Assembly (NCBI GenBank): GCA_012031975.1
Contig: JAAUSA010000029.1
Location: 1-33,324, forward strand
Source: Alkalinema sp. RU_4_3
Lineage (GTDB): Bacteria > Cyanobacteriota > Cyanobacteriia > Leptolyngbyales > Leptolyngbyaceae
Direction: 5' to 3'
Length of the DNA: 33,324 nucleotides
In this document: positions 2,189 through 33,324 of the stretch, piece by piece
Position numbering within the stretch: position 1 is the first letter of the stretch
Layout: each line of letters starts with the position of its first letter
Notes under the pieces: generated by a model
Databases searched by the model: none
Told to the model about the DNA's origin: nothing
The model's input: the letters and a program-made list of their open reading frames with translations, nothing else
Position numbers and translations under genes: made by a program

Positions 2189-3103
2189 ATGGATACTGAA
2201 TATCTCAAGCGCTTTGTTACGCTGGCCAGCATGGAACAGATTAATTTCAGCCGTGCCGCCGACATTTTAAATATTCCCCAGCCCCATCTGACGCAGCAAA
2301 TTAAGCGACTAGAGCAGGAAGTGGGGGCAGAGTTGTTCGATCGCAGTAAGCGCCCAGCCAAATTAACGCCCTCCGGCCAAGCATTTCTGCAAGAAGCCTC
2401 TGAGGCCCTGATTCGTCTCGATCGGGCTAAAATATCAGCCCAGTCGGCTGGGCGCGGTGAAGTAGGACATTTGCATATTGGCATTAATATTTCCCTCTCA
2501 AATAGCCGATTTCCGGACCTTCTCTTGGCGTTCCGCGATCGCTTCCCCAAAGTAGAAATTCGACTCCACGAAACCCTGGCTTCTGAACAAATTAGCCAGC
2601 TTCAAAATCAGCGCCTTGACATTGGTTTCCTCCATCTTTATGATCTAGAATCCTTTGACTATCGCAATGAATTTGAAAGTCTTGTGATCGCAGAGGAATC
2701 CCTCATGGTGATCCTCCCAGCGCGCCATCCCCTAGCCCAAAAAACCGCTATTAAAATTAGTGACCTCAAAGACGAGCCCTTTGTTTTGCCGTCGCTAGCG
2801 ATCGCCGGGTTTCGCCATCAAATTATCAATCTGTGTCAGCGGGCAGGTTTCTTCCCAAAAATGCAGCAGGAGGCCACCTGGACAACCACTTCACTGAGTA
2901 TGGTGGCCTGCGAAGTTGGCATTACAATTCTGCCGAGCCATGTGCAAAATCTCCAGCGATCGGGGGTTGTCTACCGGGCAATCGAGGGTGAAAGGCCCAA
3001 ACTTCAGATTGTTGCAGTATGGAGCAAGGGGTCTGAGTCAAAGGTCTTGCAGAACTTCATTGAGGTGATTAGGCAGAAGGGGCTGGTTGATGGCGGTGCA
3101 TAG
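2189..3103 (+). CDS. LysR-family transcriptional regulator
   Basis: A 304-residue protein of normal LysR length. Residues 1-60 form the winged helix-turn-helix (LKRFVTLASMEQINFSRAAD, then QPHLTQQIKRLEQEVGAELF), followed by the linker helix. Residues about 90-295 form the periplasmic-binding-like effector domain. The sequence GHLHIGINISLSNS... and LDIGFLH suggests the subgroup related to aromatic-compound regulators such as BenM/CatM, although the inducer cannot be predicted. The gene is divergent from hydantoinase A, the classical arrangement in which a LysR protein controls its neighbour and itself. The ATG at 2189 begins the usual MDTEYLKRF start of the helix-turn-helix. Confidence 0.92.
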   Translation: MDTEYLKRFVTLASMEQINFSRAADILNIPQPHLTQQIKRLEQEVGAELFDRSKRPAKLTPSGQAFLQEASEALIRLDRAKISAQSAGRGEVGHLHIGINISLSNSRFPDLLLAFRDRFPKVEIRLHETLASEQISQLQNQRLDIGFLHLYDLESFDYRNEFESLVIAEESLMVILPARHPLAQKTAIKISDLKDEPFVLPSLAIAGFRHQIINLCQRAGFFPKMQQEATWTTTSLSMVACEVGITILPSHVQNLQRSGVVYRAIEGERPKLQIVAVWSKGSESKVLQNFIEVIRQKGLVDGGA

Positions 3104-3247
3104 CCTAATTAATCGACATCGATCGCCCATTTCCCACAAACCCTTTCACTTCCAGAACACTTTCAGTCAGTATGGTGTATAACGGCAGAGGGCGACTGGG
3201 TACAATGTCCCAGCTGTCTATTCTTGTTGCTTAAGGATTAAAGATTT

Positions 3248-4348
3248 ATGGCGTTCAATGCAAGCATCCTCGGACTCAAGCCCATTGCAAAAGGTGCCTT
3301 TGGTGACGCTGTAGCAGCCTGGCAGCGTTTTCTTCAGCGCTCAGGCTTTCCCGTCGGCGCGATCGACGGTGACTTCGGCAAGGCCACGGACACCGCCACC
3401 CGCGCCTACCAGACCAAAAACCAGCTCAAGGTCACAGGCATCGCCGATCTGCCCACCTACCAGGTCGCCCTCAAACAAGGCTTCATCTTTGACATTCCAG
3501 GGGTGACGATCGCTCTCCTCCTCCAAGCCACAAACTTCAAGCTTGATGACGTCAAAGACCTGCAAAAGGCCCTCAACTCCGTTTTGACTGTCCCACCCTA
3601 TCCCAAGTACCCCACCCGTCCTGCCCTCAAACTCGACGGCGGCTTTGGGGCCAACAGCACGCGGGCCTTGGTCGAAGTCTATCGCCAACTCGACGCCAAC
3701 TTCAAACCCACCCTCACCAAAGCCCTGAGCGACAAAACCAAGAACAACTTAGGGGAGGACTTTGCCCCCGCCATGGACATCTTAGCGGAGTCTGCAAGAC
3801 GGCTGCGCGTCCGCCTCAGCGGTGCAGAATGGTATCCCAAGTTCCCCGCTAGTACCTCCCTAGAAGACCTGACCTTCCCTTTTCGCCAATACGCCAAGGA
3901 CTTTGAGAAAGCCCTCAAGGAAGCGGGGGCCAAAATCGAGATCGCCAATACCCTCCGGCCCCCGGAGCGCGTCTACCTGATGCACTATGCCACCAAGATC
4001 GCCAACGAGGACATCTATGCCGACGAGGTGCCCTATATGGCAGGCGTCGAAATTGATTGGGTCCACTACACCGATGCACTCTCGGTGCTGCGCGCCCAGG
4101 AAATGGTCGATGCCTACGAGATCGCCTATCCCCCAGCCCTACGCAGCAACCACACCCGAGGCCGGGCCGTGGATTGGTACATCACCTGGGACAAAGCCAT
4201 CAAACTGAAGGACGCCACGGGCCGCACCGTAGAAATCAACCAACCCCGCAATAGCTTTGACAACGAAGACCTCTGGCGGGTGGGATCGACCTACGGCGTT
4301 GTAAAGCTAGCCGCCGATGCCCCGCACTGGTCCCTGGACGGATTCTAG
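3248..4348 (+). CDS. Peptidoglycan-binding domain plus M15-like (VanY/DacY-type) peptidase
   Basis: A 366-residue protein. Residues about 14-78 form a PG_binding_1 domain (AWQRFLQRSGFPVGAIDGDF, then TATRAYQTKNQL). Residues about 98-165 look like a second, degenerate copy (KLDGGFGANSTRALVEVYRQ). The C-terminal domain (about 185-366) carries an M15-type zinc site: SNHTRGRAVDW gives His302 and Asp309, and DAPHWS gives His360. M15 enzymes cut D-Ala-D-Ala or L-Ala-D-Glu bonds in peptidoglycan. No signal peptide is visible, so export is by an unknown route or the substrate is reached at lysis. The gene stands alone between the LysR gene and a terminator-like hairpin. A second protein with the same two domain types in reversed order is encoded at 27127-28023. 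Confidence 0.8.
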   Translation: MAFNASILGLKPIAKGAFGDAVAAWQRFLQRSGFPVGAIDGDFGKATDTATRAYQTKNQLKVTGIADLPTYQVALKQGFIFDIPGVTIALLLQATNFKLDDVKDLQKALNSVLTVPPYPKYPTRPALKLDGGFGANSTRALVEVYRQLDANFKPTLTKALSDKTKNNLGEDFAPAMDILAESARRLRVRLSGAEWYPKFPASTSLEDLTFPFRQYAKDFEKALKEAGAKIEIANTLRPPERVYLMHYATKIANEDIYADEVPYMAGVEIDWVHYTDALSVLRAQEMVDAYEIAYPPALRSNHTRGRAVDWYITWDKAIKLKDATGRTVEINQPRNSFDNEDLWRVGSTYGVVKLAADAPHWSLDGF

Positions 4349-4364
4349 GGCATCTCGAAAAAAT

Positions 4365-4393
4365 AAGCGCACCAGCCAAACCATGGTGCGCTT
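4365..4393 (+). terminator. Strong hairpin after the M15 gene
   Basis: AAGCGCACCA at 4365-4374 pairs perfectly with TGGTGCGCTT at 4384-4393 (10 bp, 9-nt loop), starting 17 bases after the stop codon. There is no T-run on the + side. An A-run at 4358-4364 lies upstream, so as an intrinsic terminator it fits the minus strand better. Some cyanobacterial terminators lack a U-tract. Confidence 0.6.
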
Positions 4394-4512
4394 GTATCCC
4401 TAACCCTTTCGGTGCAATATACCCGTTTGTCCTTAATTGTTAGAATAGAATCCATTTCCTGGAAAGTTCTGTACGTTCATACTGTCTTTATATTTGTGGG
4501 GGATCACCCAGG

Positions 4513-4746
4513 ATGCCAATCAAGGTTCGCTTTCTTCCCGATGAAGCCACGACCGTCGCTGAAGCCGGAGAACCCCTCCTCAAGGTCGCCGATCGCGCTG
4601 GTATCGTGATCCCCACCGGATGCCTAATGGGATCCTGCCATGCCTGTGAAGTGGAGATGAACGGCGAGGAGGTCCGTAGCTGTATTACGGCTATACCGGA
4701 CACCGCAGAAATTACAATAAACCTGTTCAGCGATCCAACTTGGTAG
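4513..4746 (+). CDS. Small plant-type 2Fe-2S ferredoxin
   Basis: A 77-residue ferredoxin, shorter than photosynthetic PetF (about 97 residues). The cluster motif is GCLMGSCHACEVE, with Cys at C-x4-C-x2-C spacing, and the fourth Cys follows in VRSCITAIP. It should carry electrons to an unidentified partner. The N-terminal beta-grasp strand (IKVRFLPDEATTVAEAGEPL) is normal. The ATG at 4513 follows an AGG about 3 bases upstream and is the only sensible start. It ends 29 bp before trmD and may be co-transcribed with it. Confidence 0.88.
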   Translation: MPIKVRFLPDEATTVAEAGEPLLKVADRAGIVIPTGCLMGSCHACEVEMNGEEVRSCITAIPDTAEITINLFSDPTW

Positions 4747-28028: not shown

Positions 28029-29459
28029 ATGGCCAGTAAAATTCCGATGGGCGATATGGTCGTGATTCTACCGGGGATCATGGGCAGTGTGCTGCAAAAG
28101 GATGGCAAGGATCTCTGGGCGATTTCGGGGACGGCTCTTTGGGATGGACTGCTCGATCGCGAGGGTTTTGCCGAGCGTCTGCAACTCAAAGAGGATGATC
28201 CGATCGCCGCCGATCTTGGGGATGGGATCAAGGCGGTGCGTCTGTTTGAGGATGCAATGATTGTGCCGGGGTTTATGAAAATTGATGGGTATACGCAGAC
28301 GGCCCAGATGATCACGCAAAACTTTGATGTGGTCGAGGGTGATATCTATCGAGATGCTTGGGATAAACCTGCGAATTTCTATCGCTTTCCCTACGACTGG
28401 CGGCGGGATAATCGGGCCAATGCCAGAATTTTAAAGGACCTCCTCGATCGGCGTTTGGCCTGTTGGCGATCGCGCAGTGGGAATCCCCAGGCGAAGTTGA
28501 TCCGTGATGGCCCACAGTATGGGGGGCTTGGGTGTGCTCGCTATTACCTGGAGGTGTTGGGGGGCTGGCGGGATGCCAAGGCGCTCTTTACCTTTGGTAC
28601 GCCTTACCGGGGGGCTTTGGTGGCGGTGGATTCCCTATCCAATGACTACAAGAAGCGGTTTTTGGATCTGCGGGCGGCAATGCGATCGATGACTTCGATT
28701 TATCAATTGCTGCCGATCTATGAGGTGATTAAGATTGGCGATCGCTACCATCGGGTAGCCGAAGTGGAGAAATTGCCGAACATCGATCGCGCCAAGGCCC
28801 AAAATGCCCTAGCCTTTCATCGCGAGATTGAAACCGCTGTGACAGAAAACCTCAAGGACCCAGCCTATGCGGGGTTTAGTACCATGCCGATCGTCGGGAT
28901 TCAGCAGGAAACCTACCAATCGGCGGAGCTGGTCAACGGCGAATTAAAGCTGAGCTATGACCTGCCTGCGGTGCTAAAGAATCGACCGGATTTAGTCGAT
29001 GGTGATGGCACGGTGCCCCAGGTTTCGGCGATTCCGATCGAGCTATCCAAGAGTTTGAAAAATAACTTCATTGCGGAGAAACATGCCGCGATTCAAAACC
29101 AAAAGCAGGTGCTTGAAAATCTGCGGGAAGGGATTTCCCTGAGTCAGTTTAGTTTGGATGCAGTGCGTGCCGCCCAGGGAGCGATTAGTCTTTCCCTGGA
29201 AGACCTGTACCTGGCCGATGAGCCGATTCAGCTCCGGGCCAGGCTGATGGGGAGTGCGGCCCTGGGGAATGCCTCCCTAACGGCGGAGATTACATCCATA
29301 GCCGATGGGAAGGCGATCGCCGTTCCTTTTGTGCAGGGCGAGGAGAATCGGTGGGAATTGGCGATCGAGCTGCCGGCTGGGCAGTATCGTGTGGCGGTCT
29401 CGACGGAAGATGAGGCGGTGGCGACGCCTGTCCATGATTTGTTTGAAGTATTGCGGTAG
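28029..29459 (+). CDS. LCAT-family lipase/acyltransferase, nucleophile region locally frameshifted
   Basis: A 476-residue alpha/beta-hydrolase of the lecithin:cholesterol acyltransferase type. It starts VVILPGIMGSVLQKDGKDLW, then NFYRFPYDWRRDN and LFTFGTPYRGA. The catalytic Asp is D326 in VDGDGTVP and the His is H352 in EKHAAIQNQ. The nucleophile elbow is odd: the main frame reads KLIRDGPQYGGLGCARYY at residues 157-172, but the next frame at 28504-28540 spells VMAHSMGGLGV, a perfect GxSxG-type elbow (AHSMGG). Paired single-base shifts around 28503 and 28535-28545 would restore it. Residues about 385-476 form a beta-rich tail. It lies 9 bp upstream of the caspase-serpin gene. Confidence 0.85.
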   Translation: MASKIPMGDMVVILPGIMGSVLQKDGKDLWAISGTALWDGLLDREGFAERLQLKEDDPIAADLGDGIKAVRLFEDAMIVPGFMKIDGYTQTAQMITQNFDVVEGDIYRDAWDKPANFYRFPYDWRRDNRANARILKDLLDRRLACWRSRSGNPQAKLIRDGPQYGGLGCARYYLEVLGGWRDAKALFTFGTPYRGALVAVDSLSNDYKKRFLDLRAAMRSMTSIYQLLPIYEVIKIGDRYHRVAEVEKLPNIDRAKAQNALAFHREIETAVTENLKDPAYAGFSTMPIVGIQQETYQSAELVNGELKLSYDLPAVLKNRPDLVDGDGTVPQVSAIPIELSKSLKNNFIAEKHAAIQNQKQVLENLREGISLSQFSLDAVRAAQGAISLSLEDLYLADEPIQLRARLMGSAALGNASLTAEITSIADGKAIAVPFVQGEENRWELAIELPAGQYRVAVSTEDEAVATPVHDLFEVLR

Positions 29460-29468
29460 GGGGGAATT

Positions 29469-32400
29469 ATGGCGGATACAGATCTCTATGCGTTGTTGAT
29501 TGGGATTAATTACTACTACCCCAATCGGCTGTCCGATGGCAGTACCTATAAGGATTTAGAGGGGGCTGTGGGGGATGTCTTGGCCACGCGGGCTTTCTTA
29601 CAGACGATGCGACAGGTGCCGGATGACCATATTTTGCAGTTGACTTCGACGACGGATGAGGAGGCGGGGGAGCCCGTTGAGCCCCCTGAGCAATTGCCGA
29701 CCTATGCGAATATTATTCAGAAGTTTCAGGAACTCGGCGATCTTGCTCCGGCGGGTTCCCAGGTCTATATCCACTATTCGGGCCATGGCGGGCGGGCGCG
29801 TACGATCTATCCCCAGCTTAAAGGCGGTCCTCAGGGAATTGACGAGGGTTTGGTGCCTGTGGATATTGGCAAGCCGGAGGGGCAATATCTGCGGGATATT
29901 GAACTGGGTAAGTTGCTGAAGGATTTGGTGAATAAGGGATTAATTGTTACGGTGGTGCTGGACAGTTGTCATTCTGGGGGAGCAACTCGCGGGGAAGCGG
30001 CGGTGCGGGGTTTGGATACGATCGATGATACCCCCCGACCTGGGAGCAATCTGGCCGGAACCCCGGAGGAATTGGCGGAAAACTGGAGTGGTTTGAAGAG
30101 TGAAAACACCCGAGGGTTGAACTCTGGCTGGCTGCCGGAATCGCGGGATTACGTTTTACTGGCGGCCTGTCGTCCGAATGAGTTTGCCTATGAGTATGCC
30201 TTTGATAGTCAAACCAAGCAGCGTCGTGGGGCCTTGACCTATTGGCTGTTGGATTCCCTCCAGCAACAGACGAGTGGTTTGACCTATAAAGATCTGCACG
30301 ATCGCCTCAATGGTAAAATCCGCACCCAGTTTGCCCAGCAGACGCCGATGCTGATGGGGGAGGGCGATCGCTTGGTGTTTGGCAGCGATCGGGCAGATAT
30401 TCAGTACAGTATTCCCGTCTTGACTGTGGATACGGTGAAAAACATCGTCAAATTGGAAGCAGGCCAATCGATGGGATTGCGATTGGGTGCGGAGTTTGCG
30501 ATTTATCCGAATGGGACGCGGGACTTTTCGAATAAGGACGATCGATTGGCGATCGTCAAGATTGATGAGTTGGGTTCGACCAGTTCCCAGGGGCCATTGG
30601 AGGCTATCTTTGGTCAGCGAGCCGTGGATGTAGGGGATGTGGCTATCTTGATCGCAGCTTCAACAAATCTGGTCAAAAAAGTTCAATTGCTGCCTCAGGA
30701 AGCATTTGCCGATGAGATGGAGGGTTTGCAGGAAGTTCAATCCTTGCTGGGGATGAATCCCCGGTTGACGTTGGTAGAGTCTGGAACGCCAAGTCATTAC
30801 ACGGTGGCTGTGAATGCTAACGGAGAATTTGAAATTTGCGATCAAGCAGGGGTCGTGATTCCCAATCTACGCCCGCCAGTACGGATGAAGGAACCGAATG
30901 CAGCTCGGAAGGTGGTCGATCGCCTAGTCCATTTAGCGATGTACCATGCGACGGAGGCCCTGGATAACTTCGATAAAAACTCGCCCATGTTCGGGAAAAT
31001 ACAGGTGTCCTGGCTGGGGAAACTTCAAAATTATGATCTCGCTGATCCGATTCCAGAGGTTGTTGAGCCCTTTAGTGAGCCAGGAAATCCAGCTATTGAG
31101 GAAGGGGAATGGATTTTCTTAAACATCCAAAATAATTTTAGCCGCGCAGTGAATGTAGTAGTGTTAAATCTACAGTCAGACTGGGAAATTAAACAAGTGC
31201 AACCCGCTGACCCCGGTTCCAATTTTAACACTATAGATGCAGGTAAAAGTGTCACTTACCCATTCAAACCATCATTGGTAGAAGGCTACCTTCAAACTGT
31301 GGATGTGGTTAAAGTCTTTGCTGCAATTGATTCTCCCAATTTTCGGCTGTTATCGTTGCCTGCACTCGATCAACCCCGCTTGTCTCTAGGAAGTCGCACT
31401 GGTGATCCGTTAGAAGCACTATTGGCAGCGGTTAGTGGTGCAGCTCCAAGTAGCCGTAATATCAACCCGGCTCGGTATCCCAGTCAAGAATGGACAACCC
31501 AACAAGTTCGTATCACTGTGAGCCACCCTGGGCTCAGGAACACCAGGAATTTTGAACCTATGACGGGTATTGTGCTAGGCACCATCGCTGAATCTATGGC
31601 GGATATCGTGCACGACCCAGCAACTCTAGGGAAATCAACTCGATCGACCATTATTACAACCAGACGAATCCCCACGATCGCCCAATCTGAGGAACTTTTC
31701 CGCAATGTTGAAAAGCTCGTTCAAGGGCAAAATGCCTTCAGTTTTAGGCTATTGAATGCGATCGCCTCCCCTTCGACCCAGGAAAATATATTCATTGCAC
31801 CCTTGAGTATTGCGATCGCCCTGCTGATGATCCTAAATGTAAGTAAAACGGGTAGCCCGACGCAACTGTCCATGCTGCAACTGCTCGAAGCCAGAGGGAT
31901 GACATTACGGCAGTTGAATGAAGCTGCCTATACAGCATTTACTAAAATTCAAGCGGATCTTGATCCGACCTTAAGATTGGCCTTGGCAAACTCAATATGG
32001 ACTCGGACTGGTCAAGCGACGGATTCTGTGCGCAGCCAGACATTAGTTGACTACTACGATGCTGAGGTTTGGCAATTTAGTAATGATATTGAAGAAACGG
32101 TGAATCTGATTAATGGCTGGATTTCTGATAAAACAAATGCAAAGGTCCAAGACGTTATTGATGAGCCATTACTAGTACGAGCTGTCATTGTCTTGATTAA
32201 TGCGGTCTATTTCAAAGGCATGTGGGCTTCATCCTTTGATCCAGAAACAACCCGCCCCTACTTGAGCACCAATTTTGTTCCGCCTCGACAATTAATGATG
32301 ATGTCGCAGTCCGGCGCGTTTGACTACTGCGAAACCGATGATTTTCAGGCCGTTCGCTTAGCCTATGCCAATTCTAACTTGAGCATGGCCATCTTTCTAC

Positions 32401-32813
32401 CACAAACTAGCTGCACAATTGAGCAATTTCAGTCAATGCTTAGCTCAGAATCTTGGCAAACATGGCAGACAGCGTTTCAGCGAAAGGAAGGTACCATCGA
32501 CCTGCCTCGATTTAAAGTAGCCTACCACAGGGATCTGCTAGAGGATCTTCTCAGCCTATCTAGCTTAGAAAAATTAGGTCTACAGCTTGCCGAGGGAATG
32601 CCTGAAGAACGAATCACAAGTGCCATCCATCAAACCTTCTTGGAGGTCAATGAAGCAGGTTCAGAAGCGGCGGCGGCAACCGTTGTGATCGCGACACGTG
32701 GTTTCAATCCTAATACGTTTAGGATGACTGTCGATCGCCCATTCGTCTGTATAATCCACGATCGTGATTCAGGTGTCATTCTATTCACGGGAATCATTAG
32801 AGATCCCGCCTGA
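29469..32813 (+). CDS. Caspase-fold protease (orthocaspase-like) fused to a C-terminal serpin
   Basis: An 1114-residue protein with an intact frame. Residues about 4-308 are a C14 caspase-like domain: YALLIGINYYYP, catalytic His106 in HYSGHGG, catalytic Cys167 in VLDSCHSGG, and YVLLAACRPNEFAYE. Bacterial caspase-like enzymes mostly cut after Arg or Lys. Residues about 310-680 are a beta-rich middle, with DUF4384-like sequence near 545-640. Residues about 744-1114 are a full-length serpin: NIFIAPLSIAIALLMILN, VLINAVYFKGMWASSFDP, the hinge NEAGSEAAAAT (1061-1071), and DRPFVCIIHDRDSGVILFTG. The hinge has the small residues needed for inhibitory loop insertion, and R1077 lies in the reactive loop. 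RBS GGGGGGAA precedes ATG 29469. No signal peptide or membrane segment is visible. Confidence 0.9.
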   Translation: MADTDLYALLIGINYYYPNRLSDGSTYKDLEGAVGDVLATRAFLQTMRQVPDDHILQLTSTTDEEAGEPVEPPEQLPTYANIIQKFQELGDLAPAGSQVYIHYSGHGGRARTIYPQLKGGPQGIDEGLVPVDIGKPEGQYLRDIELGKLLKDLVNKGLIVTVVLDSCHSGGATRGEAAVRGLDTIDDTPRPGSNLAGTPEELAENWSGLKSENTRGLNSGWLPESRDYVLLAACRPNEFAYEYAFDSQTKQRRGALTYWLLDSLQQQTSGLTYKDLHDRLNGKIRTQFAQQTPMLMGEGDRLVFGSDRADIQYSIPVLTVDTVKNIVKLEAGQSMGLRLGAEFAIYPNGTRDFSNKDDRLAIVKIDELGSTSSQGPLEAIFGQRAVDVGDVAILIAASTNLVKKVQLLPQEAFADEMEGLQEVQSLLGMNPRLTLVESGTPSHYTVAVNANGEFEICDQAGVVIPNLRPPVRMKEPNAARKVVDRLVHLAMYHATEALDNFDKNSPMFGKIQVSWLGKLQNYDLADPIPEVVEPFSEPGNPAIEEGEWIFLNIQNNFSRAVNVVVLNLQSDWEIKQVQPADPGSNFNTIDAGKSVTYPFKPSLVEGYLQTVDVVKVFAAIDSPNFRLLSLPALDQPRLSLGSRTGDPLEALLAAVSGAAPSSRNINPARYPSQEWTTQQVRITVSHPGLRNTRNFEPMTGIVLGTIAESMADIVHDPATLGKSTRSTIITTRRIPTIAQSEELFRNVEKLVQGQNAFSFRLLNAIASPSTQENIFIAPLSIAIALLMILNVSKTGSPTQLSMLQLLEARGMTLRQLNEAAYTAFTKIQADLDPTLRLALANSIWTRTGQATDSVRSQTLVDYYDAEVWQFSNDIEETVNLINGWISDKTNAKVQDVIDEPLLVRAVIVLINAVYFKGMWASSFDPETTRPYLSTNFVPPRQLMMMSQSGAFDYCETDDFQAVRLAYANSNLSMAIFLPQTSCTIEQFQSMLSSESWQTWQTAFQRKEGTIDLPRFKVAYHRDLLEDLLSLSSLEKLGLQLAEGMPEERITSAIHQTFLEVNEAGSEAAAATVVIATRGFNPNTFRMTVDRPFVCIIHDRDSGVILFTGIIRDPA

Positions 32814-32886: not shown

Positions 32887-33210
32887 TCAAGCATTTGGGG
32901 CCTTCGGGAATGTACATTTAACTGAGATTTCCAAATTACTCTCCGCCGAACCTTCGGTGATGTAGGGAATGCCCGCTTTCCCACCAATTTTTAGACCAAA
33001 TTTCAAGTTAACTTCCTCAATATTGGCACCCTCAAACTCCTCAAAGGCACTCAAGGCGTACGCAACATAGCCACGAATCATCTGACGGGCCTGTTGCATC
33101 TTGACGATCGCATCCTCACGGGGACCCATGGAACCTGGTCTTTGGTTGGGACTCGGGGTAGCGGTCGCTGGAAAATCTGGGGCGGACTTATTTTCTAAGG
33201 CGATGTGCAA
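32887..33210 (-). CDS. Trypco1-like (CU044_2847-type) small protein, probably truncated at its N terminus
   Basis: About 107 residues read from TTG 33210; there is no upstream ATG before a stop at 33223-33225. The C-terminal half, NIEEVNLKFGLKIGGKAGIP then ITEGSAESNLEISVKCTF, matches the EVxxxFGxKLSxEAG...SAEGNxxV pattern of the trypsin-co-occurring domain 1, associated with peptidase effectors in conflict systems. Usual members start with a conserved beta strand about 20-30 residues earlier, which is missing here. The transposase remnant begins only a few bases upstream, so an IS insertion probably removed the start. An internal ATG (MGPREDAIVK) could start a shorter product. It is convergent with the caspase-serpin gene, with 73 bp between stops. 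Confidence 0.6.
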   Translation of the reverse strand: MHIALENKSAPDFPATATPSPNQRPGSMGPREDAIVKMQQARQMIRGYVAYALSAFEEFEGANIEEVNLKFGLKIGGKAGIPYITEGSAESNLEISVKCTFPKAPNA

Positions 33211-33215
33211 CTTTT

Positions 33216-33324
33216 TCAGGCATCACAAATCAGCCCGTCAAACTGAAGCAACTCCCTTCCCAGCTTGTGGTTGAGCCAGCAGCACAAAGTGTGGGCCAAG
33301 ATCTTACGATTGACTCGGCTGGTC
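33216..33324 (-). mobile_element. C-terminal end of an IS transposase (IS982-like), running off right edge
   Basis: The minus-strand frame reads TSRVNRKILAHTLCCWLNHK, then LGRELLQFDGLICDA and a stop at 33216-33218. This matches the end of DDE transposases, where an Arg/Lys-rich helix followed by ILAHTxxxxLNxxLGR closes the protein; IS982 is my best family guess. The rest lies outside the window, and terminal inverted repeats cannot be checked. Confidence 0.5.

Follow-up and report, generated by a model that had tools for sequence, protein, structure and literature searches.

Inhibition of C14 proteases by a serpin has been described in plants, where AtSerpin1 is listed as an inhibitor of the metacaspases AtMC9 and AtMC1 (PMC10609998) and is cleaved at the site RGLL (PMC4983112). 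The non-metazoan C14 members that had been characterised by 2017 preferred Arg or Lys at P1 (PMC5756287), and the orthocaspases and metacaspases characterised so far cleave after these residues (PMC5756287, PMC8283722), in agreement with the preference that an earlier note on this DNA had taken as known. The multidomain orthocaspases of cyanobacteria carry a C14 domain at the N-terminus and accessory modules at the C-terminus, and in surveys of 98 and 473 of these proteins no serpin was reported among the accessory domains (PMC7475262, PMC8283722). Caspases with variable C-terminal domains have also been proposed to belong to bacterial conflict systems, together with neighbouring alpha/beta hydrolases and Trypco1 (PMC7159879). 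The hinge of inhibitory serpins from prokaryotes follows the consensus ExGTEAAAA (PMC8233489).

The gene described here lies in a stretch of 33,324 nucleotides that was analysed as a whole (the window), and it joins the two partners in one chain, with an intact C14 caspase domain as the N-terminal start and a serpin as the C-terminal third. Like AtSerpin1, it has an inhibitory hinge and an Arg-Gly in the loop, and the C14 prey of AtSerpin1 have the fold of the fusion caspase; the plant proteins, however, are separate and act in trans, the hinge of AtSerpin1 has 17 residues and the inhibition has been shown experimentally. The poxviral CrmA, whose hinge is also short, is likewise a serpin that traps C14 cysteine proteases (caspases), but it is viral, has Asp at P1 and is without a protease fusion. 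Counted from the hinge Glu, the P1 Arg of C1-inhibitor and alpha2-antiplasmin is residue 16, as is R1077 in the fusion, but these two are secreted, unfused animal serpins directed against serine proteases. Antithrombin gives the best residue-level match to the loop (AAAxT-VVIAxR-xxNPN), although its hinge is longer by one residue and it is a heparin-regulated plasma protein. Of the solved structures, the bacterial serpin miropin (PDB 5ncs, 5nct, 5ncw) is closest to the fusion serpin in sequence and fold, but its loop sequence is another and it has no caspase fusion.

Results

The gene and its parts are laid out as follows.
29469..32813, + strand: orthocaspase-serpin fusion gene (P0001), 1114 aa; single open frame, ATG start, two Pfam domains (Peptidase_C14 and Serpin)
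29487..30353, + strand: C14 caspase (p20-like) domain, residues 7-295; Pfam PF00656, E 1e-17; phmmer matches to yeast Mca1, AtMC9 and AtMC4; AF2 model nearest to AtMC4 and AtMC9
29574..29576, + strand: D36, acidic S1-pocket residue of the LxGxxxD motif; invariant in 22 orthologues
29784..29786, + strand: H106, catalytic His of YSGHGG; invariant in 22 orthologues
29961..29969, + strand: D165-S166-C167 of LDSCHSG, with the S1 Asp (D165) and the catalytic Cys (C167); both invariant in 22 orthologues
30369..31568, + strand: middle region, residues 301-700; common to the orthologues of 700-740 aa, without a Pfam match
31569..31703, + strand: linker, residues 701-745; missing from the orthologues, which stop here; the only frame open across the junction
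31725..32807, + strand: serpin domain, residues 753-1113; Pfam PF00079, E 1.5e-71; AF2 model with Z about 40 against miropin and antithrombin

The N-terminal part has the hallmarks of an orthocaspase, namely a p20-like domain with a His-Cys dyad (H106, C167) and acidic S1 residues for Arg or Lys (D36, D165). D36 takes the position of Asp95 in TbMCA2 and presumably its role in the pocket, and Ala33 stands where some metacaspases have a pocket Cys. When residues 1-705 were modelled with AF2 (mean pLDDT 75.7), the solved folds nearest to the caspase were AtMC4 and AtMC9, followed by other metacaspases and the paracaspase MALT1. The fusion caspase is predicted to cut after Arg or Lys, and the genome has seven C14 loci. 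The linker has several Arg and Lys residues (KSTRSTIITTRRIPT, GKSTRSTIITTRR), and these could be candidate self-processing sites for an Arg-specific protease. In the middle and serpin parts (30369-32813) GC and GC3 are lower (46-49%) than in the caspase part and in the window as a whole (54.6%), and the codon match of these parts is poorer than that of the other window genes compared.

The Pfam Serpin match is full-length (242 bits, profile positions 2-370 of 370), and the AF2 model of the serpin (pLDDT 89.9, pTM 0.86) superposes on solved serpins with an rmsd of 1.7-2.0 over about 330 residues. The fusion serpin has no signal peptide, unlike most of the stand-alone cyanobacterial serpins inspected, the N-termini of which are mostly signal- or lipobox-like, and the fused serpin would therefore share the compartment of the orthocaspase. 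The core is divergent: it departs from 26 of 89 near-invariant columns, including A777 in place of the shutter Ser, an altered NGAxG motif and, near 1036-1045, a shortened segment where the confidence of the model is low, and its branch is by far the longest in the tree (4.3). Such a divergent serpin could be non-inhibitory. Conservation is higher in the hinge region (1054-1071) than elsewhere in the domain, with agreement at 12 of 14 near-invariant columns, and the distal RPF and the C-terminal strands are retained.

The features of the reactive loop are the following.
32652..32681, + strand: RCL hinge E1062-T1071 (EAGSEAAAAT); matches the inhibitory consensus (PMC8233489)
32697..32702, + strand: R1077-G1078, proposed P1-P1' bond; 16th-17th residue from the hinge Glu, antithrombin R393 alignment
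32733..32744, + strand: DRPF 1089-1092, distal loop anchor; from the translation

Translated from 29469-32813, the loop reads E1062-AGSEAAAA-T1071-VVIAT-R1077-GFNPN1082-TFRMTV-DRPF1092, with E1062-N1082 at 32652-32714. The hinge had earlier been described as inhibitory in type, and EAGSEAAAA (1062-1070) indeed fits ExG[TS]EAAAA inside the full-length Serpin match; its P14 is Ser instead of Thr, a conservative replacement that is also seen in antithrombin, and the hinge is homology and not chance. R1077 is, as had been noticed, the sole basic residue between E1062 and N1082, and the next one, R1085, sits in the s1C segment.

In the AF2 model the loop is already inserted: G1064-R1077 forms a strand and the s1C strand is missing, as in latent antithrombin and cleaved miropin. 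The earlier note had counted a loop that a model showed as too short or pre-inserted against its reading. As judged from the model the loop is long enough for full insertion, and pre-insertion is what the model displays. We do not read the inserted loop as proving the serpin non-inhibitory, since the predictor may be biased towards the stable relaxed state.

Counting 17 residues from the hinge Glu led to G1078, as it had done in the earlier note, but the count back from RPF, which had pointed to N1082, could not be reproduced with any of the solved relatives used: the spacing of antithrombin (14) leads to R1077, that of alpha2-antiplasmin (11) to N1080 and that of C1-inhibitor (10) to P1081. 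As the Arg-to-Pro spacing ranges from 10 to 16 across the solved serpins compared, counting back from RPF was dropped as a locator of P1. Counted from the P17-equivalent Glu, R1077 is residue 16, the place of the Arg in Arg-P1 serpins with a 16-residue hinge. The PDB sequences of C1-inhibitor (PDB 5du3: ELTETGVEAAAASAISVAR) and alpha2-antiplasmin (PDB 2r9y: ELSEAGVEAAAATSVAMNR) were checked and have their Arg likewise at the 16th position of this count; this Arg is the established P1 residue of both. The phmmer alignment with antithrombin, with one gap after the hinge, brings R1077 onto the P1 residue R393 and makes the two NPN triplets coincide, and in the fusion and antithrombin alike the Pro of RPF lies 14 residues beyond the Arg. 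In AtSerpin1 (PDB 3le2) the Arg is the 17th residue from the hinge Glu and is followed by Gly (LR-GLL). Structural alignment had been proposed as the means to fix P1. By loop class the solved serpins favour R1077, but superposition of the loop-inserted model places, by its end points, model residue 343 (G1078) on antithrombin 393 and antitrypsin 358, and R1077 on P2 of the serpins with a 17-residue hinge; this is a necessary outcome of a 16-residue hinge. Because of the 16-residue loop class and the antithrombin alignment we consider R1077 to be the probable P1 bait residue, though not decisively so, and the adjacent register, with G1078 as P1 and the Arg at P2, to be unlikely.

The Arg was compared with the loops of 45 stand-alone cyanobacterial serpins. 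Arg or Lys was found at loop positions 15-17 in 24 of the 45, at position 15 in 18/45, at position 16 in 5/45 (L007, L008, L021, L022, L030) and at position 17 in 1/45. The majority of the loops have the text TS(I/V)GI(R/V)ATS, and the other serpin of the fusion's genome (L001) had no basic residue at these positions. Two of the stand-alone serpins, L007 and L022, have the same short loop register, with TR-G and TR-S at position 16, and the predicted start of L022 is without an obvious signal peptide. Since Arg near the scissile bond is frequent in unfused serpins, the Arg of the fusion loop lends mild support to a match with the specificity of the caspase, and the match is possibly a coincidence. 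The suggestion that R1077 is a bait matching the fusion's own caspase is supported in part, by the loop position and by the Arg/Lys-type S1 residues; the own caspase as the target is plausible in view of AtSerpin1 and AtMC9 but unproven, because the Arg is shared by unfused serpins and the genome has other candidate Arg-cutting proteases.

The search with the middle region gave orthologues in 25 of 388 cyanobacterial genomes, this one included, and on three named contigs. The closest of them is 71% identical over residues 1-685, has 699 codons from stop to stop and is without a serpin, and the aligned orthologues all terminate around residue 690-705. A member of the same caspase family (L091:250-3189, + strand) has a CHAT domain where the fusion has its serpin, which suggests that modules are exchanged at the C-terminus. 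Serpins were found in 144 of the 388 genomes, and among the serpin matches listed no frame except the fusion exceeded 611 codons. A second caspase-fused serpin was not found in searches of the 388 genomes with PF00079 and the middle region, nor in 42 genomes of the family or order, one contig scan and plasmid records. The literature search returned no serpin-orthocaspase fusion, and serpin together with orthocaspase returned only a paper on a green-alga metacaspase. The unusual feature is the architecture and not the Arg match, and a single draft genome is the only known source of the fusion.

The genes on either side of the fusion are these.
28029..29459, + strand: LCAT-like alpha/beta hydrolase, upstream; homologue L003:8328-9767 is LCAT by Pfam; frame analysis
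32887..33210, - strand: Trypco1 gene (trypsin-co-occurring domain 1), downstream and convergent; PF19493, E 9.7e-18

The hydrolase upstream and Trypco1 downstream could point to one of the proposed conflict systems, of which no core component was seen; the visible part of the locus ends with the contig at 33324. The hydrolase has DGPQYGG where its L003 homologue has AHSMGG, so that the nucleophile motif is lost in frame, whereas this DNA gives VMAHSMGGLG when read in another frame. The motif therefore appears to have been removed by two compensating indels, either real or sequencing errors. In L003 the orthologous orthocaspase is followed by an intact LCAT-like gene, and an eCIS_core (DUF4157) protein and a DUF900 hydrolase are encoded near it (568-2484 and 2826-4694). 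The genome of the fusion has 11 Trypsin_2 matches and three further Trypco1 genes, of which one, on C258, adjoins a trypsin-like ORF and one, on C362, a different orthocaspase.

Discussion

Our best reading, held tentatively, is that the fusion is an Arg-directed suicide inhibitor controlling orthocaspases. It starts from what is directly seen, that is, the fold assignments, catalytic and S1 residues that are intact, the hinge and where the Arg sits, and the lack of a signal peptide. An orthocaspase of predicted Arg/Lys specificity would have gained an inhibitory-type serpin at its C-terminus; an Arg-cutting protease would cleave R1077-G1078, the Ala-rich hinge would then insert as strand s4A and the protease would be held as a covalent acyl intermediate. 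The likeliest prey would be a C14 orthocaspase, either the own domain in cis or in trans or another C14 protein of the cell, because of the analogy with AtSerpin1 and AtMC9/AtMC1 and because the trap would be in the cytosol beside the protease. The fusion would thus be a protease with its own suicide brake, as AtSerpin1 is in trans for AtMC9 and AtMC1. Metastability, trapping, the target and the choice between action in cis and in trans are what we infer here. It is possible, if doubtful, that the loop is cut by the caspase of its own chain or of a sister molecule, which would make the fusion a self-limiting, one-shot protease, or that conversely the serpin is a cleavage sensor that switches the caspase on.

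An Arg-directed serpin may also have a trypsin-like serine protease as its prey, either the trypsin of its own conflict system or a foreign one, and not a caspase. This would agree with the Trypco1 gene adjoining the fusion, with the Trypco1 gene beside a trypsin-like ORF that is one of the 11 Trypsin_2 matches, and with a P1 Arg, a residue suited to trypsin-like enzymes, as antithrombin and C1-inhibitor illustrate; but no trypsin gene is seen in the window, even if the contig ends 114 bases past the Trypco1 start, and the Trypco1 at C362 adjoins an orthocaspase, so that in this genome there is no fixed link between Trypco1 and trypsins, and we find such a prey rather unlikely. A more improbable role for the serpin is that of a protease sensor, in which an Arg-specific cut in the loop would trigger the stressed-to-relaxed switch and thereby release or activate the caspase of the same chain. 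We know of no precedent for a serpin as a cis activator, which weighs against this role, while the swapping of C-terminal modules in the caspase family (CHAT in L091, serpin in the fusion), the variable C-terminal domains and alpha/beta hydrolase neighbours of conflict-system caspases (PMC7159879) and the hydrolase and Trypco1 flanking the fusion would fit it.

The serpin domain may, on the other hand, be non-inhibitory or decaying, a C-terminal addition that is passively tolerated. The branch length of 4.3, the 26 near-invariant departures, the short low-confidence segment 1036-1045, the GC of the serpin (46% against 54.6% in the window) with its poorer codon match and the damaged look of the neighbouring hydrolase gene all point this way, but the open frame is full-length, the AF2 model is confident, and the hinge (12/14 columns), the distal RPF and the C-terminal strands have been kept; we consider this reading unlikely. 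That two separate genes were joined by an error of assembly or sequencing is very improbable. The fusion occurs once, in a draft genome of 362 contigs, and the gene just upstream has compensating indels; however, 1114 codons run uninterrupted in one frame, the other two frames are broken by several stops across the junction, with nothing like the end of an orthologue seen in them, and a separate serpin starting there would be without the signal peptide that is common in its stand-alone relatives.

The natural targets of most prokaryotic serpins are obscure, and a serpin covalently tied to an orthocaspase is a candidate inhibitor-target pair. The question of how orthocaspases are restrained becomes testable with one fusion construct and, if our reading is true, the fusion would be a bacterial counterpart of the plant serpin-metacaspase pair.
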